A DNA stretch of 64,000 bases. It comes from Acidobacteriota bacterium. GTDB lineage: Bacteria; Acidobacteriota; Thermoanaerobaculia; Multivoradales; JAGPDF01. Location of the stretch: the NCBI GenBank assembly GCA_014584695.1, contig JACTMI010000019.1, positions 1 to 64,000 on the forward strand, read 5' to 3'. The notes below the pieces were generated by a model. The model was not told the DNA's origin. It did not search any database and saw only the letters and a program-made list of their open reading frames with translations. Below, in pieces: positions 41,016 through 61,003 of the stretch (its first letter is position 1; each line of letters starts with the position of its first letter). The position numbers and the translations under genes are program-made.

Positions 41016-41690
41016 TCAGGCCGCCGCGGCGCGGGGGAACAGGACGTTGTTCTCGAGGTGGATGTGCTCGTGCAGATCGGTCTCGAGTGCCGCCAGGCCG
41101 TGCCAAAGGGCGTTCCAGGTGTTGCAGGCGCCGTCGGGGACGCGGAAGTCGTCGGTCAACTCGCGAATCCGGTGGAGCTCCTGACCGACACGGGTGTGGT
41201 CGTCGACGAACGACCCGACCTGCGAAGGCTGGCCCGCGGCGTCGAGGAGGAGGGAGGGGAAGAGGGTTTCCTCTTCCTCGTGCAGATGCTGGTCGAGCTC
41301 GCTCTTCAGCTGGAGGAAACTCTCGAGCAGGGCGCCGAGGCGCTCCGGGTCCTTGTCGCCGTGGACGCGGAAGACTCTACGCGCCATCGCCTCGAGCCGC
41401 GGCAGCTCCTCTCGCAACGGGTCGTGGTAGCGCTCGACGATGTGGACCACCAGGTCGCCGAGCGGCGCTTCCTGCCAATTCCGAGTGGCGAGATCGGCGC
41501 CGGGCGAGGTGATCTCGCGCTCGATTTCCTGGAGGACGCCCGCAGGATCGATCTCTCGCTTCGCGCAGGCATCGGCGAGCGCCACGCCACCGCCGCAACA
41601 GAAGTCGATGCCGTGGCGGGCGAAAACGCGGGTGGCGAGCGGGTGGCGGGCGGCGATCTCGCCGACGCGGGATTCGGGGCTCAGGCTCAT
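41016..41690 (-). CDS. ric: Iron-sulfur cluster repair di-iron protein Ric (YtfE/ScdA)
   Basis: A 224-residue protein: an N-terminal DUF542 domain with HGIDFCCGGG (about residues 26-35) and a hemerythrin-like di-iron domain with ligand residues in HIVERYHDPLREELPRL (about 81-97), HLHEEEETLFP, DDHTRVGQELHRI and HEHIHLENNVLFPRA. Ric restores Fe-S clusters damaged by NO or oxidants. GAGGAGA lies before the ATG. Divergent from nnrS; a TTGACA-N17-GAGAAT promoter reading toward ric overlaps the shared 42-bp regulatory block. Confidence 0.95.
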   Translation of the reverse strand: MSLSPESRVGEIAARHPLATRVFARHGIDFCCGGGVALADACAKREIDPAGVLQEIEREITSPGADLATRNWQEAPLGDLVVHIVERYHDPLREELPRLEAMARRVFRVHGDKDPERLGALLESFLQLKSELDQHLHEEEETLFPSLLLDAAGQPSQVGSFVDDHTRVGQELHRIRELTDDFRVPDGACNTWNALWHGLAALETDLHEHIHLENNVLFPRAAAA

Positions 41691-41755
41691 GACGCGGCTC
41701 TCCTCGGGTGGGGGATGGATGCGGGAAGGCGGTTGCTCACGTCGCCATTCTCGGA

Positions 41756-41797
41756 TTGACGCGAGTCATTGTCAAGTATAAAGTCACAACAATCATG
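41756..41797. promoter_or_regulatory. Divergent promoter/operator block, copy A (ric / nnrS)
   Basis: TTGAC (41756) and GTCAA (41771) form an inverted pair 10 bases apart; TATAAA follows at 41777 and the nnrS ATG begins at 41795, 24 bases after GTCAA begins. On the other strand TTGACA-N17-GAGAAT points at ric. The block matches 33 of 42 positions of the one at 47695-47736, including the start codon. No Shine-Dalgarno sequence precedes the nnrS ATG, implying a near-leaderless message. Confidence 0.7.
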
Positions 41798-43171
41798 ATA
41801 AAGGCGCCGGCCCTCGCGAGCCCGTTCGGAACCGCCGGTCCTGGACCGCTCTATCCACGCTTCTTCCTCGCCGGCATCGCCGTCACGCTGACCGCGGGGG
41901 CGACCTGGGGGGCGTGGCTGCTCCTGCGCATCGCCCGCGCGCGCGACTTCGCCGCGCCGTCGATCTTCGAAGTCAACGCGCACGGGCAGGCGCAGATCTA
42001 CGGCTGGATGGGGCTCTTCATCCTGGGCTTCGCGCTCCAGATGTTCCCGGCCTTCTGGGGAGCGCGGCTCGTCGCGCCGCGACTGGCGCGCGCGCTGCTG
42101 CCGCTGATGGCGGCGGCGATCGCCGTGCGCGCCGTCGCCGAGGCCCGCCCGGCGGGGCGCTTCGCCGACCTCGCGGTCGTGGCGGGGGGCGTCCAGCTCG
42201 CCGTGGTCGCGACCTTCGTGGCGCTGCTCGCGGCGACCTCCCGCCGTGGCCTGGCGCGAAGGCACGTCGCCGATCGCTACCTCGGCGCCGGCCTCGTCTG
42301 GTTCCTGCTCGGCACCGCGCTCGACCTGCGCCACCTCGCGCGCACGGTCGGCGCCGCCGACCGCGACGCGCTGCTCGCCGAGATCGCGACCTGGCAGCTG
42401 CCGCTGCGCGACCTGCAGATCCACGGCCTGGCGCTGTCGATGATCCTCGGCGTCTCGCTGCGCGTGCTGCCCGGCCTGTTCGGCACGCCGATCGCCGACG
42501 AGCGGCGGGCGCGCCGCCTGTTCTGGCCGCTCCAGCTCGCGATCCTCGCCGAGGCGGCGCTCTTCCCGCTCGCCATGGCGACAAAGCGACCGCTGCTGTT
42601 CGTCGGCTTCTGGATCGCGACGGTCGTCTTCGCGATCGCGGCGGCGCTCGCCGCCGCCAACCTGCGGGTCTTCGCGCGGCCGCGCGTCGCGCTGCCGCGG
42701 GTGTCGCCGCTCGCCTTCGCGCGCGCGGCGCACGTCTGGCTCGTCGTCTCGCTCGCGATGCTGGTGGCGGGTCCGTTCTGGTCGCGCCTGCTCGAGGTGC
42801 CGTTCTCGCACGCCTGGCACGGCGCGACGCGGCACGCGATCACGGTCGGCTTCGTCAGCCTGATGATGATCGGCGTCGCCTCGCGCATCGCGCCGCGCCC
42901 GGCGGGGAGCGGTGCGACCGGGGCCGCGCTGCCGCTCGCGCCGTTCGTGCTGCTCAATCTCGGCTGCACGCTGCGCGTCAGCCAGCAGGTGCTGACCGAC
43001 CTGACCCCCGTCGCCTTCCTGCCGGCCGGGGTCTCGGGGCTGCTCGAAGTCTCCGGGCTCGCGTGGTGGGCGACCTGGATCGTCCCGCGTCTCGTCCGCG
43101 CCAGCCGGCCGCTCGAAGTGGCCCGCGCGGCGCTCGCCGGCGAACCGATGCCGCCGCCGACCGGACGCTGA
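41795..43171 (+). CDS. nnrS: NnrS family membrane protein
   Basis: A 458-residue protein with about 12 helices and the NnrS signatures FEVNAHGQAQIYGWMGLFILGFALQMFP (about residues 48-75), LQIHGLALSMILGVSLRVLPGLFG and HAITVGFVSLMMIGVASRIAP. NnrS is a heme- and copper-containing membrane protein that protects cells during nitrosative stress and denitrification. ATG 41795 is fixed by alignment with the copy-B block and by the family N-terminus. Its neighbours Ric, CopD and the NO-reductase-like operon support that role. Confidence 0.92.
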   Translation: MIKAPALASPFGTAGPGPLYPRFFLAGIAVTLTAGATWGAWLLLRIARARDFAAPSIFEVNAHGQAQIYGWMGLFILGFALQMFPAFWGARLVAPRLARALLPLMAAAIAVRAVAEARPAGRFADLAVVAGGVQLAVVATFVALLAATSRRGLARRHVADRYLGAGLVWFLLGTALDLRHLARTVGAADRDALLAEIATWQLPLRDLQIHGLALSMILGVSLRVLPGLFGTPIADERRARRLFWPLQLAILAEAALFPLAMATKRPLLFVGFWIATVVFAIAAALAAANLRVFARPRVALPRVSPLAFARAAHVWLVVSLAMLVAGPFWSRLLEVPFSHAWHGATRHAITVGFVSLMMIGVASRIAPRPAGSGATGAALPLAPFVLLNLGCTLRVSQQVLTDLTPVAFLPAGVSGLLEVSGLAWWATWIVPRLVRASRPLEVARAALAGEPMPPPTGR

Positions 43172-43202: not shown

Positions 43203-43646
43203 ATGTACGGTGCGATGCTCTTGCTGCACATCTTGGCCGCGACGATCTGGACCGGCGGCCACCTGGTCCTGACGATCGCGATCCTGCCGCGCGTTCTGCG
43301 GGAGCGCTCGCCGGCCAAGCTTCTGGAGTTCGAGTCGGCTTACGAGCGGATCGGCATCCCGTCGCTGGTCGTCCAGGTCGCGACCGGCCTCTGGCTGGCG
43401 CACCGGATGGTGCCGGAGCTCTCGCGCTGGCTCGCCTTCGGCGATCCGGTCGCGACCCTGGTCGGAGTCAAGCTCCTGCTGCTCGCCACCACCGTCGCCT
43501 TCGCCCTCGACGCCCGCCTGCGCCTGATCCCCCGCCTGTCGAAACAGAACCTCGGCGCCCTCGCCTGGCACATCGTCCCGGTGACGATCGTCTCGGTCCT
43601 CTTCGTCGTCGTCGGAGTCTCGTTCCGGACCGGCTGGTTCTACTGA
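43203..43646 (+). CDS. CopD-family membrane protein
   Basis: A 147-residue protein with four helices; the opening LLLHILAATIWTGGHLVLTIAILPRVL and FESAYERIGIPSLVVQVATGLWLA match the copper-resistance D domain. Two histidines in the first helix (LHILAATIWTGGH) are candidate metal or heme ligands. Likely moves copper or heme across the inner membrane. It lies 31 bases after nnrS, so is probably co-transcribed. Confidence 0.85.
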   Translation: MYGAMLLLHILAATIWTGGHLVLTIAILPRVLRERSPAKLLEFESAYERIGIPSLVVQVATGLWLAHRMVPELSRWLAFGDPVATLVGVKLLLLATTVAFALDARLRLIPRLSKQNLGALAWHIVPVTIVSVLFVVVGVSFRTGWFY

Positions 43647-43967: not shown

Positions 43968-44599
43968 GATGGAGCCTCCTGTTCGAGTGGAGATGGGTTC
44001 GTCGTGCGGGGGTCGGGCCCGGAGGACGCGACCTCGACGCGATGCCGCCTCTGGTTTCGCGCCGTCGCGCGCAGTGAAGTCACGCCGGCGAGCACGACGA
44101 GCAGGACGACGAGAGGCGAGAGCCGGAGGAGCCACGCGCCAGTCATCCGTTGCTGCGCGAGATCGAAGGTGCCGCAGAGCAGCGCCGAGTAACTCGAGTA
44201 GATGATCCCGAGGGCGATCGTCATCGCCGCGGCGTAGATGCCGAGGACGCCCCGGACGACGAACGGCATGTTTCGCCAGCTCGCCGCGACTGCGGCGCCG
44301 GCGCCGAACATCGAGACGTGCATCAACTGGTCGGCGACTTCGCTCGCGCGAATCGCGTCGACTGAGCGCGGGAGCATCCAGAAGGCGAGCGCTCCGAGAG
44401 CGCAGGCGAGACCGGTCAAACCGTACTGGTTTCCCCGCGTCCAGGTTCCGCCTGAGCGGCCTGTGGCGAGAGTGCCGAGAGCCGCCCACGCCGGGAGGGC
44501 GAGCAGGACGAGCCGCGGCATGGTCGCGTCGAGCCATTCGTCTGCCGCGGAGTTGGACAGCGCGAGCGCGGCGGCGGCGATCCAGAGCGCACGCCTCAA
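43964..44599 (-). CDS. Membrane protein of the norSY-senC-orf1 cluster (orf1-like)
   Basis: A 211-residue protein starting at TTG 44599, overlapping the SCO1 stop (TTGA). It has about six helices with FWMLPRSVDAIRASEVADQLMHVSMFGAGAAVAASW in the middle, faintly like CtaG-type assembly factors. In nitrifiers and some heterotrophs an unassigned membrane gene (orf1) follows norS-norY-senC, and this gene holds that position. Its function is unknown; assembly of the copper centre is a reasonable guess. The hydrophilic tail (about 180-211) ends at the HTHP start. Confidence 0.6.
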   Translation of the reverse strand: MRRALWIAAAALALSNSAADEWLDATMPRLVLLALPAWAALGTLATGRSGGTWTRGNQYGLTGLACALGALAFWMLPRSVDAIRASEVADQLMHVSMFGAGAAVAASWRNMPFVVRGVLGIYAAAMTIALGIIYSSYSALLCGTFDLAQQRMTGAWLLRLSPLVVLLVVLAGVTSLRATARNQRRHRVEVASSGPDPRTTNPSPLEQEAPS

Positions 44600-45225
44600 C
44601 CGACGACCTCACGCACGGCGGACGCGAGCCGGTCGAGATCCTCGTTCGCCGGCAGAATGCGCACGACACGGCCCTCGGGGTCGATGACGAAGATGTCGAC
44701 GCCGTGGTTGATCAGGCCGTCGGGGCGCCGATAGAGCCAGATTCCGAGCTGTCGCAAGGGCTCGTCGCCGGCACCGTCGGCGGGCGTCACGAAGGCCCAG
44801 TTCGGAGGCGAACCGTAGGCCTCCCAGACCGCGCGGAGCCGATCGGGAGGATCCCGGTCCACGCTGACGCTCACCGCCCGAAGGCGGCTCGGCGGGACGT
44901 CGGAGAGCGTCGCGGCCAACCGCTGGAGGCGTGACATCGCGAGCGGGCAGATGTCGGGGCATCGCAGGTACATGGCCTGGACGAGCCGATAGCCGCCGTC
45001 GCGGGCGCCGAGATCGATCGTCTGGCCTCTCTGGTCGATGACCTCGAAGCGGGGCGCCGGGCGGGGCAGAGGACCGGCCGTCGCCACGGCAGCCGAGAAC
45101 GCGGTGAACGCCGTGAAGCCGTGCGTCCACCACGCGCCGACGACGATCCACGCGCCGGCCACCATCGCCGCGGGCAACCAGGCCAGCAGGCGGCGCAGCC
45201 TGGCAGGGCGCGGCTCGCGCGTCAT
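44596..45225 (-). CDS. senC: SCO1/SenC copper chaperone
   Basis: A 209-residue thioredoxin-fold protein with an N-terminal anchor (residues 14-36), the copper site C-x3-C in LRCPDICPLAM (about 96-106), and the distal His in GLINHGVDIFVIDPEGRVV (about 175-193). SCO proteins deliver copper to CuA centres. It overlaps the subunit I gene upstream and the orf1-like gene downstream by four bases each, consistent with assembly of the adjacent terminal enzyme. Confidence 0.92.
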   Translation of the reverse strand: MTREPRPARLRRLLAWLPAAMVAGAWIVVGAWWTHGFTAFTAFSAAVATAGPLPRPAPRFEVIDQRGQTIDLGARDGGYRLVQAMYLRCPDICPLAMSRLQRLAATLSDVPPSRLRAVSVSVDRDPPDRLRAVWEAYGSPPNWAFVTPADGAGDEPLRQLGIWLYRRPDGLINHGVDIFVIDPEGRVVRILPANEDLDRLASAVREVVG

Positions 45226-46682
45226 GCGGCCGTGCCCGACCTGCGCCGCCGCCCGGCGACCAGGGAGACGCAGAAGACCAGTGCGCCCAGCAGGAAGACC
45301 GAGCCGCCGAGGGCGCCCCAGCGCGCGAGCTCGGCCGCCCGGTCGGCGAGGTCGGGATAGGGGATCGTCGCGTAGCTGGCGAAGCGGCGCGGCACGGAAT
45401 CGAGCCCGCCGAGAAAGAACATCAGGACGAAGGTGTAGCCGCCGGCGAGCATCGCCGCGAGGCCGGTCCCGGCCAGCCGCTCGGCGCGCGAGCGCAGGAA
45501 GAGATGCATGAAGCCGAGCAGGATCAAGACGTAGCCGACCAGGAAGTAGGTGTGGAAGTGCGCAGGCACCCAGAGCGTGTTGTGGAAGACGAGATTGACC
45601 GCGATCGTCGAGTCGACCACCGCCGTGATGCCGCCGAGGACCCAGCCGAGGATGCCGAGCGTGAACGCCGCCGGCGCGAAGCTCCAGCGCAGCCCGGAGC
45701 GGTGAATCTGCGCGCCCAGGCCGAAGACCGTCACCGCCGTCGCGGGCACCGCCGAGCCGTACGAGGCGATCTGACCGAAGACCTGAAGGGCGACCGGCTG
45801 GACGAAGTCCATGTAGAGATGGTGGAAGTAGGCGAAGAGGATGAAGAAGAGCGTGGCGTTCCAGGCCACCGCGACGGTGCGGGTGACCTTCCAGGCGCGG
45901 CCCGTGAAGCGGGGCATCAGCTCGTAGATCGCGCAGATGCCGCAGTACATGGCGACGTTCACGATGGTGTGACCGAACATGAACATGCCGTTCTTGAGCA
46001 GCAGGGCGTCGAACTCGGTCGCCGGCGCGAGCCACTTGAACAGGTAGGTCATCAGCGTTGCGGCCCCGACGATCGTTCCCAGCACCCCGGCGACGGCGCA
46101 GATCGACGCGACCAGGACGCCCGCGGGCGCCGGCTCGCCCGCGCCCGCCCGGAAGCGATCCCAGGCGAACATCCGGCCGATGCCGTGCTCGGCCGCGAGC
46201 GCGCGCAGGATGTCGAGCTGCGCGACGAGCCAGGCGAGGCCCATCGCCATGAGCGCGACGATCGTGGTGCCCGTCGCCCAGCCGGGCCACGTCGCCTTGA
46301 GGAAGGGGAGCGGGTAGAGGGCATACCAGCCGGCCGCGAACTTGCCGATCAGGGTGGCGACCAGCAGCGCGACGGCGCCGGCCACGAACAGGACGTAGGC
46401 GACCCACATCGCGGCGCGGCTCGGCCGGGCGTGGCGCGCGGCGACGAACCAGACCATCGCGATGCCGGCCGAGAAGAGCGTGCCGGCCATGCCGAGGCCG
46501 TGCATCGTCATCAGCGCATAAAAGTCCGGAGTCGAGAGCGGGACGACCGCGCCCTGGGCGAGGCGCATGGTGATGCCGAGCGTGACCAGGAGGAGAAAGA
46601 TCGCCAGCGTGGTGACGAGCCAGGTGGCGATCAGGCGGCGGTCGCGATCAGGGGTACTTCCCGTTGCGGTTCCGGTACTCAT
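45222..46682 (-). CDS. norS: Heme-copper oxidase superfamily subunit I, predicted sNOR-type nitric oxide reductase
   Basis: A 486-residue subunit I with 12 or so helices. Ligand histidines are visible: H61 (heme, TM2), H238 (CuB, GHTIVN), H287/H288 (CuB, FHHLYMD) and H375/H377 (AHFHTYFLVGY, hemes). The oxygen-reductase HPEVY segment after the CuB His is replaced by H238-TIV-N242, placing Asn where cNOR has its catalytic Glu; from memory this is a feature of the sNOR family. The gene order subunit II, subunit I, SenC, membrane ORF equals the norSY-senC-orf1 cluster. NO rather than O2 as substrate is therefore my favoured inference. Confidence 0.75.
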   Translation of the reverse strand: MSTGTATGSTPDRDRRLIATWLVTTLAIFLLLVTLGITMRLAQGAVVPLSTPDFYALMTMHGLGMAGTLFSAGIAMVWFVAARHARPSRAAMWVAYVLFVAGAVALLVATLIGKFAAGWYALYPLPFLKATWPGWATGTTIVALMAMGLAWLVAQLDILRALAAEHGIGRMFAWDRFRAGAGEPAPAGVLVASICAVAGVLGTIVGAATLMTYLFKWLAPATEFDALLLKNGMFMFGHTIVNVAMYCGICAIYELMPRFTGRAWKVTRTVAVAWNATLFFILFAYFHHLYMDFVQPVALQVFGQIASYGSAVPATAVTVFGLGAQIHRSGLRWSFAPAAFTLGILGWVLGGITAVVDSTIAVNLVFHNTLWVPAHFHTYFLVGYVLILLGFMHLFLRSRAERLAGTGLAAMLAGGYTFVLMFFLGGLDSVPRRFASYATIPYPDLADRAAELARWGALGGSVFLLGALVFCVSLVAGRRRRSGTAA

Positions 46683-47212
46683 TGGACCAGGATCTCCGCC
46701 ATCATCACCGTGTGCCCGACGCCGCAGTACTCGAGGCAGAGGACGTGGTAGGTCCCGGGTTTGTCGAAGCGGACCCGGAGGTGGTTGACGTACCCGGGCA
46801 TCGCCTGCGTCTGGGCGATCAGCCGGCCCTGGAGGTCGTAGATGCCGAAACCGTGATTGACGTCCTTCGACGTAACGGCGAACTCGACGAGCTCGTGCAC
46901 CGGCACCTCGAGGGGAAGGCTCGCGCTCGCCCCATCGACCTGGAAGTCCCACGCCCACATCCAGCCGACAGCGTCGATCTTGCGGGCCGGCGTCTCGTCG
47001 GCGATGCTCGCATAGGGAGTCCGTGAAAGCGTGAGGAAGAGCAGGATCGCGAGCCCGGCGATCAGTGCCGTGGCGTAGTGGCGGCGCACCCGGTAGACGA
47101 CCGTGTAGCCGCTGGCGTCGCGAGTCGTCGCACGCCGCGCGACGAGGAGCGCGACGGCGATCACGATCAGGGCCAGGACGAGCGAGACCAGGGCGGCGAG
47201 GGACTGGATCAT
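46679..47212 (-). CDS. norY: Subunit II with CuA site (NorY-like)
   Basis: A 177-residue protein with two N-terminal helices (residues 5-27 and 45-66) and a periplasmic cupredoxin domain. The CuA ligands are H120 (DVNHGFG), C159, C163, H167 and M170 in CLEYCGVGHTVMM. It receives electrons from a cytochrome c or cupredoxin for the adjacent subunit I; the cupredoxin encoded at 56930 is a possible donor. Overlaps both neighbours by four bases. Confidence 0.9.
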   Translation of the reverse strand: MIQSLAALVSLVLALIVIAVALLVARRATTRDASGYTVVYRVRRHYATALIAGLAILLFLTLSRTPYASIADETPARKIDAVGWMWAWDFQVDGASASLPLEVPVHELVEFAVTSKDVNHGFGIYDLQGRLIAQTQAMPGYVNHLRVRFDKPGTYHVLCLEYCGVGHTVMMAEILVQ

Positions 47213-47697
47213 GGGGCGCTCCTCTCGCCCGATCTGCGGGCCGAGCCGGCACGGGGCGTCTGGGCCGAGCCCGAGCGCGACTCGGCCCGCCGGGCGTCTA
47301 CGGTGCGCTCGGGTCCTCGGCGGAGCTGGCGGAGGAGAAAGTCCCGCAGCACGACGGCGTTGTTGTGCTCGGTATCGCGCGCGGCGTAGAGCAGCGTGAT
47401 CGGCGCCTCGCGGAGAGCGGCCAGCAGGGGACTCCAGGATTCCGGACGGGAGCGCAGCTCGAGGCGGTAGCGCCGCTGGAACTCCGGCCATCGGTCGACG
47501 CGGTGAGCGAACCACTTGCGCAGCTGCGGGCTCGGCGCGACTTCGGATAGCCACGTGGCGGCTGCGACCTCGGACCTGCGCAGCCCCCTTGGCCAGAGCC
47601 CGTCGACGAGGAAGGCGCGAGAGGCCGTCCGCGGCGTCCGGCCGTAGACGCGTTCGAGAGCGATCGCAGGTTTCGGAGGCGGGCGATCTTTTGACAT
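47209..47697 (-). CDS. DUF488 family protein
   Basis: A 162-residue protein with the DUF488 signatures RVYGRTPRTASRAFLVDGLWPRGLRR (about residues 15-40), WLSEVAPSPQLRKWFAHR and ITLLYAARDTEHNNAVVLRDFL. The family has no firm function but often occurs near heme and NO-related genes. ATG 47697 (MSKDRPPP) is chosen over ATG 47706 because it aligns exactly with the nnrS start inside the shared 42-bp block. It is the first gene of the six-gene overlapping operon, and its message would be near-leaderless. Confidence 0.88.
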   Translation of the reverse strand: MSKDRPPPKPAIALERVYGRTPRTASRAFLVDGLWPRGLRRSEVAAATWLSEVAPSPQLRKWFAHRVDRWPEFQRRYRLELRSRPESWSPLLAALREAPITLLYAARDTEHNNAVVLRDFLLRQLRRGPERTVDARRAESRSGSAQTPRAGSARRSGERSAP

Positions 47698-47736
47698 GAT
47701 TGTCATGACTCTAAACTTGACAACTACGGCCGTCAA
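47695..47736. promoter_or_regulatory. Divergent promoter/operator block, copy B (nor-like operon / E1 gene)
   Basis: Read on the minus strand: TTGAC (47736), 10 bases, GTCAAG (47721), TTTAGA, then the DUF488 ATG beginning at 47697, again 24 bases after GTCAA begins. On the plus strand TTGACA-N17-TAGGCT points toward the E1 gene. It shares 33 of 42 positions with copy A. The remainder of the 47698-47986 gap shows no other gene. Confidence 0.7.
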
Positions 47737-47986
47737 GCCTAGGCTCGTCCTCGAGGTCGAGGAGTCGCATGACGCCCCAGAGCCAGAGCTCGCCCGGAAC
47801 CCCTCTCCGCCGCCGATCGACGGTGGCGCTCTTCGCGTGCGGCGATGCGCCGGCGGCGGCGCCTCGAGCGCTTTTCGCCGAGGCCGTCCCAGCCGACCGG
47901 AGGCAGCTGGATCGCTGGGAGAACGAGGGAGGCGCTCTGGGATCCGCTGGGGTCAGGCCGTCGGCCGTCCTGGGAGGCGAAGCCGG

Positions 47987-50110
47987 GTGACGGTCGTCTC
48001 CTTTTCCCGCGAATCTGCACGGTCCGGGGCGGCTGCGCTTTCGGACGAGCGAAGGATCCCGGCGGCGGACTCTCCCGCCCCCGACCCGTCGGAGTTGCGG
48101 CGGGCGTACTCGCTCATGCACCTGGCGAGGATCCTTGACGACAAGGCTCCCAACTACCTCAAGCAGGGGCTCGGCTGGTCGTACCACGCGCCCTGTGCCG
48201 GACACGACGGCATCCAGATCGCCTTGGGGCTCACCTTCCGGCCGGGCCACGACTACCTCTTTCCCTACTACCGGGATCTCGCGACCTGTCTCGCGGCCGG
48301 CATCTCGGCCGAAGAGATCCTGCTCAACGGGCTCTCGAAGCGCGACGACGTCGCCTCGGGCGGCCGGCACATGTCCAACCACTTCGCCAAGCCCGCGATC
48401 GGCATCCAGAACGTCTCCTCGTCCGTCGCTAACCACGCGCAGCACGCGGCGGGTCTCGGGCGCGCCATCAAGTCCTACGGCTCGGACGCGATCGTCTTCT
48501 GCTCGGTGGGCGAATCGTCGACCTCGGAAGGCTACTTCTACGAGGCGGTCAACGGCGCCTCGCGGGAGCAGCTCCCGGTGGTCTTCGTCGTCCAGGACAA
48601 CGGCTACGGCATCTCCGTGCCGAAGAGCGACCAGACCGCCAACCGCCACGCCTCGGACAACTTCGCCGGCTTCCGCAACCTGCGGATCTTCCACTGCGAC
48701 GGAACGGATCTCGTCGACTCGCTGCGCGCCCTGCGCGCCGCCGTCCGCTACGTCGCCTCCGGCGCCGGGTGCGCCCTGGTCCACGCCGAGTGCGTGCGGA
48801 TCCACTCGCACTCGAACTCCGACCGGCACGAGCTCTACCGCTCGCCCGAGGAGCTCGCGGCGGCCCGCGCGCGGGATCCTCTGCCGCGGCTCCGCGCCCG
48901 CGTGCTCGCGGAGGGAGCGGCCAACGAGGAGGAGATCGGAGCGATCGAGCACGAGAACCTGCGGACCTACGAGGAGATCGCCGAGCGGGTCCGTCGCGCG
49001 CCGGATCCGGATCCGGGGACGATCCACGACTTCGTCGCGCCGGAGCCCTGGCAACCGGAAGGAGATGGTCTCGCCGAGCTCGCGGCGACGCCGGCGTTCC
49101 TCGCCGACGCGGCGCTCGAAGAGCGCTCGCTGCTCGAGGCGCTCAACCTCACGCTCAAGGAGCTCTTCCGCGAGAACCCCGACACCTACCTCTGGGGCCA
49201 GGACGTGGCGAACCGGGACAAGGGAGGCATCTTCAACGTCACCAAGGGGCTGCAGCAGGAGTTCGGGGCGCGCCGGGTGTTCAACGGCCCGATCGCCGAG
49301 GACTACATCCTCGGCACCGCCGACGGCTTCTCGCGATTCGCCGACCGGATCCGCATCGTGGTCGAAGGCGCCGAGTTCGCCGACTACTTCTGGCCGGCGG
49401 CCGAGCAGATGGTCGAGATGTCGCACGAGTACTGGCGCACCCACGGACAGTTCGTGCCCAACGTCACCATCCGGCTCGCGTCGGGCGGCTACATCGGCGG
49501 CGGCCTCTACCACTCGCAGAACATCGAGGGCTGGCTCGCCACTCTGCCCGGCGTCCGGATCGTGGTTCCCGCCTTCGCCGACGACGCCGCCGGCCTGCTG
49601 CGGACGGCCGTCCGCTCGCGCGGGATCACGGTCTACCTGGAGCCCAAGTTCCTCTACAACGCGCGCTCGGCGCGAGCGTACGTGCCACCCGGCTTCGCCG
49701 TGCCGTTCGGCCGGGCGCGTCGCCGCCGGGCGGGAGACGAGTTGACGATCGTCGCCTGGGGCACCGCCGTGCATCTGGCGCTCGACGCGGCCGCGAAGAT
49801 GGAGGGAGAGGGTCGCAGCGTCGAGATCCTCGACCTGCGCTCGCTCGTGCCGCTCGATTGGGACGCCCTCGCGGCGTCGGTGCGCAAGACCTCACGGGTG
49901 CTCGTCGTCCACGAAGACAAGGTCCACGGGGGGTTCGGCGGCGAGATCGCGGCGCGGATCGGCTCGGAGCTGTTCGCTCACCTCGATGCTCCGGTCGATC
50001 GCGTCGGCTCGACCTTCACTCCCGTGGGATTCCACCGCGCCCTCGAGCGTGCGATCCTTCCGGACGCGAATCGGGTCCTCGACGCGGCGCGGAAGGTGCT
50101 CGCGTATTGA
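47987..50110 (+). CDS. Fused alpha-beta E1 component of a branched-chain-type 2-oxoacid dehydrogenase
   Basis: A 707-residue TPP enzyme. Residues about 45-345 are the E1-alpha domain, with the TPP motif GESSTSEGYFYEAVNGASREQLPVVFVVQDNGYGIS; residues about 375-700 are E1-beta (RVFNGPIAEDYILGTADGFSRFADR, GEIAARI at the transketolase C-terminal domain). It decarboxylates a 2-oxoacid such as 2-oxoisovalerate and acylates lipoyl-E2; no E2 or E3 gene is in the window. GTG 47987 is taken with GGGAGG 12 bases upstream; the start is less certain than the rest. It lies divergent from the nor-like operon behind the shared regulatory block. Confidence 0.88.
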   Translation: MTVVSFSRESARSGAAALSDERRIPAADSPAPDPSELRRAYSLMHLARILDDKAPNYLKQGLGWSYHAPCAGHDGIQIALGLTFRPGHDYLFPYYRDLATCLAAGISAEEILLNGLSKRDDVASGGRHMSNHFAKPAIGIQNVSSSVANHAQHAAGLGRAIKSYGSDAIVFCSVGESSTSEGYFYEAVNGASREQLPVVFVVQDNGYGISVPKSDQTANRHASDNFAGFRNLRIFHCDGTDLVDSLRALRAAVRYVASGAGCALVHAECVRIHSHSNSDRHELYRSPEELAAARARDPLPRLRARVLAEGAANEEEIGAIEHENLRTYEEIAERVRRAPDPDPGTIHDFVAPEPWQPEGDGLAELAATPAFLADAALEERSLLEALNLTLKELFRENPDTYLWGQDVANRDKGGIFNVTKGLQQEFGARRVFNGPIAEDYILGTADGFSRFADRIRIVVEGAEFADYFWPAAEQMVEMSHEYWRTHGQFVPNVTIRLASGGYIGGGLYHSQNIEGWLATLPGVRIVVPAFADDAAGLLRTAVRSRGITVYLEPKFLYNARSARAYVPPGFAVPFGRARRRRAGDELTIVAWGTAVHLALDAAAKMEGEGRSVEILDLRSLVPLDWDALAASVRKTSRVLVVHEDKVHGGFGGEIAARIGSELFAHLDAPVDRVGSTFTPVGFHRALERAILPDANRVLDAARKVLAY

Positions 50111-50208: not shown

Positions 50209-50910
50209 ATGAGAACACCACTTCCGATCGTCGGCCCCGGGATCGGCGAGAGTCAGCGTCGGCTCCTCGAGCTGATGAAGCGCGCCGGCGAGTGTACGCT
50301 CGCCGAGCTCGAAGCCGGTTTCGAGCTGAGTCGGGAGACGCTCCGAATCCACCTGAAATCGCTCGCCGCGCAGGGCCTGGTCGAACGCTCGGGCGTCCAG
50401 CGCGCCGGGCCAGGCCGACCTCACGTGCTCTACCGGTTGACTCCGAACGGCGAGGCGCTCTTTCCCCGCCGCGAGGGAGCGCTGCTGCGCGAGCTCGCGA
50501 CGTTCCTCCTCGAAAAGGGACGGCGCGAGCTGCTCGAAGAGTTCTTCGCGGATCGGCTCGGGCGCAAGCGTCTCGAGCTCGAGACACGGGTCGCCGGACT
50601 CGAGGGCCGCGAGCGACTGGAGCGAGTCGCCGAGATCCTCTCCGAGGATGGGTTCCTGGCCGAGGTCGCGGACACGACCGAGGGACCGCGGCTCCGCCTC
50701 TCCCACTGTCCGATTCAGGATCTTGTCGCGGTTTCCGACCTGCCCTGCCGGTACGAGCTGGCGCTGATCGAGGGTCTGCTGGGGGGCCGTCCCGACCGAG
50801 AGGAGTTCATGCCGGCAGGGAGCCACGCGTGCGTCTACTCGATCTCGAGTGCCCGGACGAAGCGTCGGGGTGCGAGCCCGTCGATCCCTTCGGGGAAGCG
50901 ATCGGCTTGA
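50209..50910 (+). CDS. SufR-like Fe-S-type transcriptional regulator
   Basis: A 233-residue regulator. Residues 12-85 form a winged helix (ESQRRLLELMKRAGECTLAELEAGFELSRETLRIHLKSL) with a GAGPGRPHVLY-type wing. The C-terminus has C167-x12-C180-x27-C208 (SHCPIQDLVAVSDLPC...SHAC), the cysteine spacing described for SufR-type [4Fe-4S] repressors. It probably senses cluster status or NO. AAGGAG lies 3-4 bases before the ATG. It lies 98 bases after the E1 gene on the same strand, beside the NO-related operon. Confidence 0.8.
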   Translation: MRTPLPIVGPGIGESQRRLLELMKRAGECTLAELEAGFELSRETLRIHLKSLAAQGLVERSGVQRAGPGRPHVLYRLTPNGEALFPRREGALLRELATFLLEKGRRELLEEFFADRLGRKRLELETRVAGLEGRERLERVAEILSEDGFLAEVADTTEGPRLRLSHCPIQDLVAVSDLPCRYELALIEGLLGGRPDREEFMPAGSHACVYSISSARTKRRGASPSIPSGKRSA

Positions 50911-55249: not shown

Positions 55250-55777
55250 TCATGCCGCCGGGCTCGGTGGAGCGCCGGCCGATTCCGGCTCCTGCAGGCG
55301 GAGGCGAAGCGCCTTCTCGCGAGCGAACCGCTCGGACACGTCGCGGACGATCGCGACGACCCAGTCGACCGGGCGGCTCGCTTCGGGCAGCAGCTGGATC
55401 GAGAACTCGATCGACAGCTGCCGTCCGTCCTTGTGGAGCGCCGGGACCGCGAGCAGTTGGCCGTCGCCGTAGCGGGTGCGGCCGGATCGCATCGCGGTCT
55501 CCCAACCGGCCCAGTGCCGACTTCGCAGCCGCTTCGGGATCACGAGGTCGAGCGAGGCGCCGAGCGCCTCTTCCGCAAGGTGACCGAAGATTCGCTCCGC
55601 TCCGGCGTTCCAGAAGCGGATCGCGCCGTTTCGATCGCAGATCAAGACCGCCTCGGCTGCCCCGGCGAGGATGCGGTCCGGGAGGTCCTCCGGAAGCGCC
55701 GCCTTCGAGACCGGGTGCTCCCTCCGGTTCGCTCTTCCGATGGCCGTGTCAGGGCGAAGTGAGCGAGAAGTGCTCAT
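55250..55777 (-). CDS. Stand-alone PAS-domain protein
   Basis: A 175-residue protein with one PAS domain (about residues 28-155): ILAGAAEAVLICDRNGAIRFWNAGAERIFGHLAEEALG, then the typical HKDGRQLSIEFSIQLL and VVAIVRDVSERFAREK. No kinase, cyclase or DNA-binding domain follows, so it is a single sensor module. PAS domains of this form often bind heme or flavin. It overlaps the ferredoxin gene by 29 bases and precedes a ferredoxin reductase, so sensing of redox state or O2/NO is a reasonable inference. Confidence 0.85.
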   Translation of the reverse strand: MSTSRSLRPDTAIGRANRREHPVSKAALPEDLPDRILAGAAEAVLICDRNGAIRFWNAGAERIFGHLAEEALGASLDLVIPKRLRSRHWAGWETAMRSGRTRYGDGQLLAVPALHKDGRQLSIEFSIQLLPEASRPVDWVVAIVRDVSERFAREKALRLRLQEPESAGAPPSPAA

Positions 55778-56003
55778 AGTTCCTCGCGATGAAGCTCCGC
55801 CACTTCTCCGGGACCTCCTCCTGCGGATAGATCGCCTGGACCGGGCAGGCGTCGATGCACAACCCGCAGTCGATGCACTCCTCCGGATGGATGAAGAGCA
55901 TCTCCCAGTCCTCGTTCTTGCCGTAGATGCAGTCGACCGGACAGACGTCGACGCAGGCCGTGTCCTTCACGCCGATGCAGGGCTCGGTGATGATGTGGGG
56001 CAC
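55749..56003 (-). CDS. fdxA: Seven-iron-type (3Fe-4S/4Fe-4S) ferredoxin
   Basis: An 84-residue ferredoxin. Cluster ligands are in CIGVKDTACVDVCPVDCI (Cys at 9, 17, 21 and 25) and CIDCGLCIDACPVQAI (about 42-57). The first group has the Asp/Val spacing of FdxA-type 7Fe ferredoxins. It carries electrons in the cytoplasm, probably from the adjacent reductase. On its strand a TTGACA-N17-TACCGT promoter lies about 75 bases upstream within the third regulatory block. Confidence 0.93.
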   Translation of the reverse strand: MPHIITEPCIGVKDTACVDVCPVDCIYGKNEDWEMLFIHPEECIDCGLCIDACPVQAIYPQEEVPEKWRSFIARNYEHFSLTSP

Positions 56004-56080
56004 CCAGGGCCTCCGATCTCTCGGTCCGGGGCTCGAAAGCCCGCGGACTCATCGAAACGGTACGTCGGGCGGGTGTGATT

Positions 56081-56107
56081 GTCAAGGTTACAGTACCAAT
56101 AAACATG
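56081..56107. promoter_or_regulatory. Divergent promoter/operator block, copy D (upstream of ferredoxin)
   Basis: GTCAAG at 56081, then GTTACA, then an ATG beginning exactly 24 bases after GTCAA begins, as in copies A and B (20 of 27 positions shared with A, 19 of 27 with B). The distal TTGAC half is not conserved. On the minus strand TTGACA-N17-TACCGT points at the ferredoxin gene. The plus-strand ATG (56105) opens METLQGLCQTRLGAI, then enters the antisense of the cyclo-ligase gene, so its own gene appears lost. The rest of 56004-56149 holds nothing else. Confidence 0.6.
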
Positions 56108-57887: not shown

Positions 57888-58117
57888 GAAGCCGCTCCAG
57901 GTCGTCAAGTGGGCTTCGGACGCTCGGTGCACGTCGTGCGGGCCATGCAGCGCAGATAGGGGGTCCAGCGATCCCAGTGAGCACCGCGAACCCTCGCCGG
58001 TGCTCCCCCGGGCGGACCTCCGGCGCTGCCCTGCGGGCTCTGGAATTGCCTTGTAGGGTCGAGAGGGGCTATTTTAGAGAGGCCCGCCTCGGCCCTGCGA
58101 GCCGCGGCCAAGAGACC

Positions 58118-58912
58118 GTGTCCGACCGTCCGAAGTCCCCGCCCGACGTCACGCCCGACGAGCTCGAGGAGCAGCTCGGCGGATTGGCGCTCCTCGGCGA
58201 CCCGGTGCGGCGGGCGATCTACCGCCACGTCATGTCGTCCGGTCGGGAAGTCAGCCGCGAGGAGGCGGCGCGAGCCGCGGGCGTGTCGCGGAGCGTCGCG
58301 AGCTTTCATCTCGATCGCCTGGCGGAGGAGGGACTCCTCGAGGTCGGCTTCCGTCGGCTCTCCGCGCGGAGCGGTCCGGGAGCGGGCCGGCCGTCCAAGC
58401 TCTACCGTCGGTCGGGTCGGCAGCTCGAAGTCTCGCTGCCGCCGCGCCGCTACGAGCTCGCGGCGCACCTGCTGGCCGAAGCCGTGGACCACAGCCTCGC
58501 CTCGCAGGCGCGCGACGCGCTGGCCGAGAGCGCCCGGGCGAGAGGCCGTCGCCTCGGTGCCGAAGCGCGGGCGCGCGCCGGCGCGCGTGCCGGCCGGCGC
58601 CGCCTCCTGGCCGAGCTCGCGGCGGTCCTGGTGGCGCAGGGCTACGAGCCGGAGCTCGTGGGCACGGAGCTACGGCTGCGCAACTGCCCGTTCCATGCGC
58701 TCGTCGGCGAGCACACGCAGCTCGTCTGCGGCATGAACCTCGACCTGCTCGAAGGCGTGGTCGACGGTCTGGCGGTCCGCGGGGCGAAGCCGGTGCTCGC
58801 CCCCCGCCCCGGCCTCTGCTGCGTGTGCGTACTGCTCGATCGCGATGGCCGACCTGGGCCGCCGAAGGCTCCCGGTATCGGAGAGGCTGCTCCGCCCGCG
58901 CGCTCCGCGTGA
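58118..58912 (+). CDS. SufR-like cysteine-containing transcriptional regulator
   Basis: A 264-residue regulator starting at GTG 58118. The N-terminal winged helix (about 18-100) includes LLGDPVRRAIYRHVMSSGREVSREEAARAAGVSRSVASFHLDRLAEEGLLEVGF and a GAGRPSKLY wing. The C-terminus has C190-x13-C204-x29-C234, followed by C235 and C237 (NCPF...QLVC...GLCCVC), a slightly looser version of the SufR spacing. It may bind a Fe-S cluster and respond to NO or oxidants. Its promoter region shares repeat elements with the cupredoxin operon. Confidence 0.78.
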   Translation: MSDRPKSPPDVTPDELEEQLGGLALLGDPVRRAIYRHVMSSGREVSREEAARAAGVSRSVASFHLDRLAEEGLLEVGFRRLSARSGPGAGRPSKLYRRSGRQLEVSLPPRRYELAAHLLAEAVDHSLASQARDALAESARARGRRLGAEARARAGARAGRRRLLAELAAVLVAQGYEPELVGTELRLRNCPFHALVGEHTQLVCGMNLDLLEGVVDGLAVRGAKPVLAPRPGLCCVCVLLDRDGRPGPPKAPGIGEAAPPARSA

Positions 58913-58928
58913 AACGGACAGCGCGGGC
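58894..58928. terminator. Strong hairpin between convergent genes
   Basis: GCCCGCGC and GCGCGGGC form a perfect 8-bp stem spanning the stop codon of the SufR-like gene and reaching within 10 bases of the rnk stop on the other strand. It lacks a T tract; a bidirectional terminator-like role fits the convergent arrangement. Confidence 0.45.
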
Positions 58929-58937
58929 GACGTCGCC

Positions 58938-59348
58938 TCAGCGCGAGAAGTCTCCCGCCGCCTCGGGCTGGTAGAGCACGGCCTCGACCCGCAGGCGCCG
59001 CAGGCCTCCCGGCACGGTCCATTCGATCTCGTCGCCGACGCGGTAGCCGAGCATCGCGGCACCGATCGGCGCGAACACCGAGATTCTCCCGTCGGCGAAG
59101 TCCGCGTCCTGGGGGTAGACCAGCGTGTATTCGAGCGTCGCGCCCCGATCGAGATCGAGGAGCCGAGCCTTCGAGTTCATCGTGATGACGTCCGGCGGGA
59201 TCTCGGCCGCTGGCACCACGCTCGCGCGTTGGATCTCGACGACGAGATCGCGCACGTCGTCGCGGTCCCAGGCGGCGGTCGGTCGCTCGAGGAGCGCCAC
59301 CAGACGCTTGCGGTCCTCGGCGGTCAGGAAGATGTTGCGCTCGCTCAA
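58938..59348 (-). CDS. rnk: Rnk-type regulator (GreA/GreB C-terminal domain)
   Basis: A 136-residue protein, the same length as Escherichia coli Rnk. A short coiled N-terminus (ERNIFLTAEDRKRLVALLE) precedes the GreA/B-type FKBP-like domain: DVITMNSKARLLDLDRGATLEYTLVYPQDADF and ISVFAPIGAAMLGYRVGDEIEWTVPGGLRRLRVEAVLYQPEAAGDF. Rnk binds RNA polymerase and regulates nucleoside diphosphate kinase levels. TTG 59348 is chosen because GGAGG lies upstream and it gives the family length. Confidence 0.9.
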   Translation of the reverse strand: MSERNIFLTAEDRKRLVALLERPTAAWDRDDVRDLVVEIQRASVVPAAEIPPDVITMNSKARLLDLDRGATLEYTLVYPQDADFADGRISVFAPIGAAMLGYRVGDEIEWTVPGGLRRLRVEAVLYQPEAAGDFSR

Positions 59349-59493
59349 CTCGAACCCCTCCTCGGCGGGCCGTCGCCGACTCCGTTGATCTTACTCCCGC
59401 GGAGAGGGCGAAGGACGCCCACCGCCTGGTGGGTGCCACGTTGCGGCAGGCGACCGGCGCGCTCGCTCGGATTCCGGTCCTCGGCGTGGCCAC

Positions 59494-59534
59494 TTGACGA
59501 GTCGGAGAGTGCGCCTTATATTTAGGACCCCTAA
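59494..59534 (+). promoter_or_regulatory. Sigma-70 promoter overlapped by an operator, for the MarR gene
   Basis: TTGACG (59494) and TATATT (59517) are 17 bases apart. TTAGG-ACC-CCTAA (59522-59534), a perfect 5-bp inverted repeat, overlaps the -10 and the likely transcription start. The MarR ATG begins 15 bases after the -10, so the leader is only a few bases long. Autorepression is the natural reading. Confidence 0.65.
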
Positions 59535-59537
59535 CGA

Positions 59538-60251
59538 ATGACTCCGAGAACGAGACCCGCGATGAAAGCCCCTTTCGACAACGAATCCACGGCGCACCGT
59601 CTCGTCACCGCGCTCGCCAAGGTCGGTCTGGCGCTGCGGACGAGGGCCTGGCAGGCGGCCGGAGAGCGGGGCCTGACGCCGACCCAGACCCAGCTCCTCA
59701 CCCTGCTCGACGGTGGGTCGGCGCCCGGCGCCCGGCTCGCGCAGCTCGCGGCGGGCCTGGGCGTGACGCCGGCCACGGCGAGCGAGGCCGTCGCCGCGCT
59801 GGTGCGCAAGGGGCTCGTGAAGAGCGAACGCGCGGCGGACGACGCGCGCGCCCGGGACATCCGCCTCACGCGTGCGGGGCGTCAGATGGCCCGGCGGGCC
59901 GCGGGTTGGACCGACTTCCTGCGGGCGGCCGCGGACACCCTGGAGCCCGGTGAGCAGGCGGTCTTCCTGCGGGGCCTGGTGAAGATGATCCGCGAGCTCC
60001 AGGAGCGCGGGGAGATTCCGGTCTCCCGCATGTGCGTCACCTGCCTCTACTTCCGTCCCAACGAGCATCCCGGCGAGGATCTGCCGCATCACTGCGCCTT
60101 CGTCGATGCGCCGTTCGGCGACCGGAGCCTCCGTCTCGATTGCGGCGACCACGTCGTCGTCGCCCCGGATCAATCGGGGGAGCTCTGGAAGAGGTTCGTC
60201 GACCGGGGCTCCGACACCGGCTCCGGGCCCTCCCCGTCACCGACACAGTAG
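59538..60251 (+). CDS. MarR-family regulator with cysteine-rich C-terminal extension
   Basis: A 237-residue protein. Residues 20-150 form a MarR winged helix (GLTPTQTQLLTLLDGGSAPGARLAQLAAGLGVTPATASEAVAALVRKGLVKSERAADDARARDIRLT). An extra domain follows with SRMCVTCLYFRPN, LPHHCAFVDAPFGDR and LRLDCGDHVVV: four cysteines (C-x2-C, C, C; about residues 167-205), well placed to hold a metal or Fe-S cluster. ATG 59538 is near-leaderless; ATG 59562 is an alternative. It lies 143 bases upstream of the protoglobin gene on the same strand, so it probably controls that NO/O2-binding protein. Confidence 0.85.
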   Translation: MTPRTRPAMKAPFDNESTAHRLVTALAKVGLALRTRAWQAAGERGLTPTQTQLLTLLDGGSAPGARLAQLAAGLGVTPATASEAVAALVRKGLVKSERAADDARARDIRLTRAGRQMARRAAGWTDFLRAAADTLEPGEQAVFLRGLVKMIRELQERGEIPVSRMCVTCLYFRPNEHPGEDLPHHCAFVDAPFGDRSLRLDCGDHVVVAPDQSGELWKRFVDRGSDTGSGPSPSPTQ

Positions 60252-60394
60252 GCCGGAATCCAGCGTCCCGAGGAGTCACCATGGCCCGTCGTCCCCTTCT
60301 CGTCGCAGCCCGGCTCGTCGCCCTCCTGGCGGCGGGTCACCTTTCCATCGTCAGCGCCCTGCTCGCCGAGCCGCGGCGCCAAGGAGAGCCCCCG

Positions 60395-61003
60395 ATGTCG
60401 TCCACCGCCCACGCCGCACCCTCCATCCCCGGTTACACCCTCGGCAACCCGGCCGTGCCGCGCTCGCCGCTCTCGATGGAGGAGCTCGCTCTGCTCCAGA
60501 AGACGGTCCTCTTCACCGACGAGGACGTGAAGTACCTGCGGCTCTCCGGCGAAGTTCTCGCCGGCCAGGAGGAGGCGGTGCTCGACGTCTGGTACGGGTT
60601 CGTGGCCTCGCACCCGCACCTGGTCTACTACTTCGGCCGCAAGGCCGACGGCCAGCCGGACGGCGACTACCTGGCCGCCGTTCGCAAGCGGTTCGCGCGC
60701 TGGATCCAGGACACGGCCGCGGCCAACTACGACCAGGCGTGGCTCGACTACCAGTACGAGATCGGCCGGCGCCACCACCGGACCGCGAAAAACCGCACCG
60801 ACGGCGCCCCGAGCGTCGACAACATCAGCTATCGGTACCTGCCGGCGTTCATCTACCCGATCACCGCGACGCTGAAGCCGTTTCTCGCCAAGAAAGGGCA
60901 CGGCGAGGAGGAGGTGGAGAAGATGCACCAGGCGTGGCTGAAATCCGTGATCCTCCAGGTCACGCTCTGGAGCCAGCCGTACATTCTCGACGGCGACTTC
61001 TGA
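60395..61003 (+). CDS. Protoglobin (globin-fold O2/NO sensor or dioxygenase)
   Basis: A 202-residue protoglobin. IPGYTLGNPAVPRSPLSMEELALLQKTVLFTDEDVKYLRLSGEVL, VLDVWYGFVASHPHLVYYF, and the proximal-His region YQYEIGRRHHRTAKNRTDG, then YLPAFIYPITATLKPFLAKKGH. Protoglobins bind O2, CO and NO. The ATG at 60395 has AAGGAG 8 bases upstream and gives the family length. A farther ATG (60281) with its own ribosome site would add 38 residues including a hydrophobic stretch; I consider that less likely. It follows the cysteine-rich MarR gene. Confidence 0.88.
   Translation: MSSTAHAAPSIPGYTLGNPAVPRSPLSMEELALLQKTVLFTDEDVKYLRLSGEVLAGQEEAVLDVWYGFVASHPHLVYYFGRKADGQPDGDYLAAVRKRFARWIQDTAAANYDQAWLDYQYEIGRRHHRTAKNRTDGAPSVDNISYRYLPAFIYPITATLKPFLAKKGHGEEEVEKMHQAWLKSVILQVTLWSQPYILDGDF

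Follow-up and report, generated by a model that had tools for sequence, protein, structure and literature searches.

A predicted operator shared by divergent promoters of nitric oxide-related genes, and a SufR-like candidate regulator, in an Acidobacteriota bacterium

Genes and repeated blocks in the window

The window, the whole 64,000-nucleotide stretch of DNA that was analysed, carries a set of genes with a common bearing on nitric oxide (NO) and iron-sulfur (Fe-S) chemistry, listed below with start codons as predicted from sequence.

41016-41690, minus strand: ric, ScdA/YtfE di-iron Fe-S repair protein (TIGR03652, 235 bits, over cutoff; PF04405 and PF01814)
41795-43171, plus strand: nnrS (PF05940, 42.5 bits, over cutoff; ATG 41795-41797)
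43203-43646, plus strand: CopD-like membrane protein, downstream of nnrS (PF05425)
44596-45225, minus strand: SCO1/SenC-like copper chaperone (PF02630)
45222-46682, minus strand: heme-copper oxidase subunit I homologue, predicted NO reductase (PF00115; COX1 alignment)
46679-47212, minus strand: cytochrome oxidase subunit II-like protein whose sequence shows a CuA-type motif (PF00116; CoxB below cutoff)
47209-47697, minus strand: DUF488 protein of the inactive N3i subclade, first gene of its operon (PF22752, PF04343; start ATG 47697-47695)
48119-50110, plus strand: alpha-beta fusion E1-type 2-oxoacid dehydrogenase, gene start uncertain (PF00676, PF02779, PF02780)
50209-50910, plus strand (protein 50209-50907): SufR1, winged-HTH protein with C167-x12-C180-x27-C208, proposed as regulator from co-occurrence and alignments
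55749-56003, minus strand: FdxA-type ferredoxin (NF045480, 97.5 bits, below the cutoff of 125)

NnrS belongs to NO regulons elsewhere (PMC1274295), and the place of nnrS is occupied by a homologue of the CopD-like protein in two relatives (G004 and G006). The pair of COX2- and COX1-like genes (45222-47212, minus strand) was not recognised as an NO reductase by NCBIfam models. In the alignment to COX1 the H-x-x-V-Y motif of the subunit I homologue reads H-T-I-V-N, and this replacement of the active-site tyrosine by asparagine, together with the adjoining CuA-type subunit, suggests a candidate NO reductase. The searchable literature offered nothing useful on DUF488 and NO. Further along, at 58061-61003, lie a second SufR/ArsR-like regulator, a cysteine-rich MarR and a protoglobin; both of these regulators were nearly restricted to the organism's own genus among the genomes tested.

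A 42-bp block stands at two of the divergent gene pairs. A first-pass annotation of this DNA, made from the sequence alone, had proposed that the block is a shared divergent promoter and operator for genes with one NO/Fe-S theme, and that its copies A (41756-41797, plus strand) and B (47695-47736, minus strand) match at 33 positions without gaps. The count was borne out, and the theme is supported by ric, nnrS, the predicted NO reductase and fdxA. The 60 bases on each side of the two copies are identical at only 16/60 and 19/60 positions, which is background, so that a larger duplication is ruled out as the source of the likeness. When A was dinucleotide-shuffled six times, no match in the window reached 24/42, while the conserved core TTGTCAAGTNTANAGTCANNACAATCATG has two exact matches in the window and none, at up to three mismatches, in 100 shuffles. 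A third copy, D (56066-56107), lies upstream of fdxA and matches A at 29 of 42 positions.

Promoters and operator within the block

Numbering the columns of the block from the first T of TTGAC, two interleaved promoters and an inverted repeat can be laid out as follows.

41756-41761, plus strand: site A, -35 of the forward (nnrS) promoter, TTGACG (left half of the dyad proposed by the first-pass annotation)
41779-41784, plus strand: site A, forward -10 TAAAGT, N17 from the -35
41747-41775, minus strand: site A, reverse promoter (ric), TTGACA 41770-41775, N17, GAGAAT 41747-41752
41769-41792, plus strand: site A, operator dyad TTGTCAAG-TATAAAGT-CACAACAA between ric and nnrS, 13/16 to the consensus arms
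47708-47736, minus strand: site B, forward promoter (DUF488 operon), TTGACG 47731-47736, N17, TAGAGT 47708-47713
47717-47745, plus strand: site B, reverse promoter (E1-sufR1), TTGACA 47717-47722, N17, TAGGCT 47740-47745
47700-47723, minus strand: site B, operator dyad TTGTCAAG-TTTAGAGT-CATGACAA between the DUF488-cox/nor operon and E1-sufR1, 15/16
56057-56085, minus strand: site D, reverse promoter (fdxA), TTGACA 56080-56085, N17, TACCGT 56057-56062
56079-56102, plus strand: site D, operator TTGTCAAG-GTTACAGT-ACCAATAA, left arm perfect and right arm weak, 11/16

Across the sites the forward -35 is TTGAC[GTC] (columns 1-6), followed after N17 by a forward -10 of the form TA[AGT]NNT (columns 24-29). 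The forward -10 had earlier been read as TATAAA or TTTAGA; those hexamers sit at N15, and TAAAGT and TAGAGT, which occupy columns 24-29 at N17 and whose place is kept in all forward promoters, are the better reading. The start codons of nnrS (41795-41797) and DUF488 (47695-47697) lie only about 10 bases past the forward -10, so that, with transcription starts placed from the promoter hexamers, both mRNAs would be nearly leaderless. On the other strand the reverse -35 TTGACA falls in columns 15-20, and after N17 its -10, mostly TANNNT or CAGAAT/GAGAAT, lies beyond the block; the opposite-strand promoters claimed for A and B, with GAGAAT and TAGGCT, were found as described. At sites H and I (G110 and G116), where no reverse gene is known, the reverse -35 place reads CTGACA, and site J lacks a good -10 at N17 in the same comparison.

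The inverted repeat consists of TTGTCAAG (columns 14-21), N8, and CWTGACAA (columns 30-37), and 11 to 16 of its 16 arm positions are kept across 12 sites. No promoter hexamer covers its right arm, which is nevertheless conserved in inverted-repeat form. These alignments support a predicted operator of 24 bp, TTRTCAAG-N8-CTTGAYAA, at columns 14-37. Since the dyad overlies the forward -10 and includes the reverse -35 TTGACA, a protein bound to it should repress both promoters. The idea of a shared divergent promoter and operator is thus upheld by the promoter geometry of both strands and by the dyad, and so is that of a regulator overlapping both promoters, with the difference that the dyad concerned is this one and not TTGAC-N10-GTCAA.

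Distribution of the block and of SufR1

A 46-position profile (R1) was built from the 12 sites, the training sites having first been found near sufR1 or ric. Scanning the genome and its relatives with a matrix, as the first-pass annotation had suggested, returned three sites in the organism's own genome (A, B and D), all within 14.4 kb and with no fourth at E<=1, as well as sites in six further genomes of the Thermoanaerobaculia. With three sites only, the predicted regulon is compact, and would comprise ric, nnrS-copD, DUF488-coxB-norA-sco, E1-sufR1 and fdxA.

The first-pass annotation had staked its proposal on conservation of the block at orthologous loci, and upstream of nnrS and ric orthologues in relatives the block is indeed conserved. 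In a genome of another genus of the same family (G007) the nnrS/ric intergenic block matches at 30/30 informative positions, with arms of 16/16, and further copies stand upstream of the cox/nor operon and of E1. Copies were also found upstream of DUF488/E1 and of fdxA in G001, between copD and sufR1-ric in G006, which has another at a second sufR1-ric operon, at the equivalent copD/sufR1-ric place in G004, and, in a different family of the class, upstream of nnrS in G110 and G116. The compared genomes are incomplete MAGs or assemblies, and the independent sites are few. Adjoining operator copies in G004 and G006 are short fragments resembling the SufR1 N-terminus (L101:9083-9220 and L047:1609-1770); these are probably remnants of regulator genes, decayed or truncated, next to operators that have survived.

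Strong profile hits (E<1e-4) occurred in 7/149 genomes of the class (G000, G001, G004, G006, G007, G110 and G116) and a strong SufR1 orthologue in 10/149, and all seven site-bearing genomes are among these ten (hypergeometric P about 4e-10, uncorrected for phylogeny and from few genomes). Three genomes of the same family that are without SufR1 (G002, G003 and G005) have no site even at E<=1. Gene order follows the same association: in five relatives (G004, G006 with two copies, G016, G032 and G034) sufR1 immediately precedes ric, in G110 and G116 it adjoins nnrS, and in the window as well as in G001 and G007 it follows E1. The three remaining genomes with SufR1 (G016, G032 and G034) have degraded dyads of 12, 11 and 10 of 16, the last of which is not above shuffles; each keeps TTGACA-N17-TANNNT.

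Both of the window's SufR-like proteins and the cysteine-rich MarR had been put forward as regulators, and of the three SufR1 alone follows the block. Among the block-bearing genomes G004, G006, G007, G110 and G116, none has a match to the second SufR-like protein (58151-58909), and the MarR (59538-60248) is missing in four of the five and has a weak partial match in G110; both were rejected as regulators on the strength of these absences. SufR1, the only tested candidate whose distribution follows the block, is accordingly the best candidate regulator on comparative grounds.

Evidence from outside the class points in the same direction. With the arms fixed from the Acidobacteriota sites, the regions upstream of SufR1 homologues from Gemmatimonadota and an unassigned MAG gave operator scores of 15 (L125), 14 (L129), 13 (L128 and L130) and 12 (L127) out of 16, equalled by 0-1 of 300 shuffles, and N8 was the best arm spacing among 2-16 (mean 12.45, against 10.3 or less for the others). 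The same scoring found no operator upstream of a Thermoleophilia homologue (L126). In L125, from Gemmatimonadota, the operator precedes a DUF488-sufR1 operon, which links DUF488 to the regulon independently; here, as in G016, G032 and G034, TTGACA-N17-TANNNT begins inside the right arm. Genes for Mrp/ApbC-type Fe-S carriers lie directly downstream of two of the Gemmatimonadota homologues (L129:6618-7172 and L130:6567-7664), and DUF2249 proteins occur near the homologues of L125 and L126.

Candidate regulators and a proposed switch

Other explanations of the block were weighed. In the first, an Rrf2-family regulator of the NsrR, IscR or RisR type would bind the block as its operator and would also regulate sufR1. 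NsrR, an Fe-S protein (PMC12343034) and a repressor responding to nitrogen oxides, classically controls ytfE/ric (ytfE/dnrN) and nnrS (PMC1274295), and Rrf2 proteins were present in 13/13 genomes tested. Their presence, however, does not track the sites, as G002, G003 and G005 have Rrf2 proteins without a site, and by inspection the sites are unlike the NsrR consensus gATGyAT-N5-ATrCATc, as the first-pass annotation had held; we consider an Rrf2 operator improbable.

A second explanation makes TTGAC-N10-GTCAA the operator, with the identity of the regulator left aside. The pattern is exact at A and at B, as had been claimed, and both halves are found in most other sites with a forward gene. 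Nevertheless, the outer TTGAC occurs in 9/9 sites with a forward gene and in 0/3 without (D, D1 and J), and because it tracks the forward gene in this way it is best read as the forward -35, part of a promoter rather than an operator half. Nor is the pattern the dyad that sufR1 homologues of different phyla have in common in their upstream regions, TTRTCAAG-N8-CTTGAYAA. As a genome-wide search pattern it is unspecific, with 58 places at one mismatch against 20 for a reversed control, and in the window two mismatches gave 13 matches against 9 expected, which alone is weak evidence. That this dyad is the operator is therefore very unlikely. Just as little weight can be given to the view that the sites share only -35 and -10 elements on both strands and have no dedicated regulator; although most conserved columns coincide with the promoter hexamers, the right arm is conserved beyond them, the profile has just three hits genome-wide, and the hits strongly co-occur with SufR1. 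Least probable of all is a CRP/FNR-family site (HcpR/DNR-like, TTGAC-N4-GTCAA), for although site A holds TTGAC-gcga-GTCAT, delta-proteobacterial HcpR uses TTGACnnnnGTCAA (PMC1274295) and ATGAC-N4-GTCAT precedes ric in more distant relatives, the N4 arrangement is confined to A, with B, C, H and others lacking the right half, and D and J are without the outer TTGAC, which is a -35 element.

The earlier remark that the spacing is unlike FNR/DNR boxes holds likewise, TTGA[CT]-N4-[AG]TCAA being absent and A alone coming close with one mismatch; HcpR/DNR-type and NsrR-type boxes both misfit the site set. The ATGAC-N4-GTCAT boxes (FNR/HcpR/DNR-type) upstream of ric belong to more distant relatives within the class (L040-L046), and suggest that the type of regulator has been exchanged within it.

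We return to SufR1 as the preferred regulator. Pfam matches place its HTH at the N-terminus, and C167, C180 and C208 are invariant in both SufR1 alignments (A1 and A3). The AlphaFold model is of moderate confidence (pLDDT 71, pTM 0.47), and as Foldseek returned only generic winged-HTH matches of ArsR/MarR/PadR type, the model supports a DNA-binding domain only. In Mycobacterium tuberculosis SufR (Rv1460) the cysteines C203, C216 and C244 are required (PMC6034842), and the protein represses as a [4Fe-4S] form that is released by NO damage (PMC9045647). SufR1 has the cysteine spacing of Rv1460 (x12, x27) and, like Rv1460 and Streptomyces avermitilis SufR, a winged-HTH N-terminus; it is predicted to share their cluster-dependent repression, and its operator, as in S. 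avermitilis, overlaps promoter elements. By this analogy it probably works like SufR. Known SufR proteins, however, regulate the suf operon, whereas the predicted targets here are ric, nnrS, the NO reductase operon and fdxA. The published SufR box of cyanobacteria and S. avermitilis, CAAC-N6-GTTG, differs from TTRTCAAG-N8-CTTGAYAA, and cyanobacterial SufR (TIGR02702) has its cysteines as C-x12-C-x13-C-x14-C. SufR1 matches TIGR02702 over its full length but weakly (58.8 bits, orthologues 46-73, cutoff 178.8), and with this score and an operator unlike CAAC-N6-GTTG it is not filed in the SufR equivalog, its winged HTH and C-x12-C-x27-C notwithstanding.

The same logic has been worked out on nitrogen-oxide genes for ArnR of Corynebacterium glutamicum, a winged-HTH protein with three cysteines and a [4Fe-4S] cluster, whose repression of hmp and narKGHJI is relieved by NO (PMC12343034). 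Set against SufR1 by description, ArnR differs in its cysteines (179, 193 and 223, spacings x13 and x29) and its targets. NsrR, of the Rrf2 family, is unrelated in protein family and in operator (PMC1274295). This type of regulator has been described before. We found no description of these targets or this DNA site in the searchable literature, and none joining SufR, Acidobacteria and a regulon.

We infer that SufR1 binds the operator, that it represses rather than activates, that it carries a cluster and that NO is its signal. The block would then consist of overlapping back-to-back sigma-70-type promoters and one 24-bp operator, to which a SufR1 homodimer would bind. Holo-SufR1, with an Fe-S cluster on Cys167, Cys180 and Cys208, would block RNA polymerase in both directions, and NO, or cluster loss by other means, would release it, inducing ric, whose product repairs clusters, nnrS, the DUF488-CuA-NO-reductase-like-SCO operon, fdxA and, as autoregulation, E1-sufR1. 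We regard it as likely that Fe-S-loaded SufR1 represses these genes and that NO lifts the repression. With less assurance, we lean towards a wider reading in which SufR1 and its homologues form a separate SufR-like clade of Acidobacteriota and Gemmatimonadota with an operator of its own, a dedicated NO/Fe-S-damage repressor that controls ric, nnrS, ferredoxin and a CuA-type NO reductase in place of NsrR, one operator closing two interleaved divergent promoters. If so, the SufR family would gain new targets, a new DNA site and new phyla, DUF488 and the heme-copper NO-reductase-like genes, both poorly understood, would be linked to an NO regulon, and uncultured Acidobacteriota would gain a predicted NO switch.
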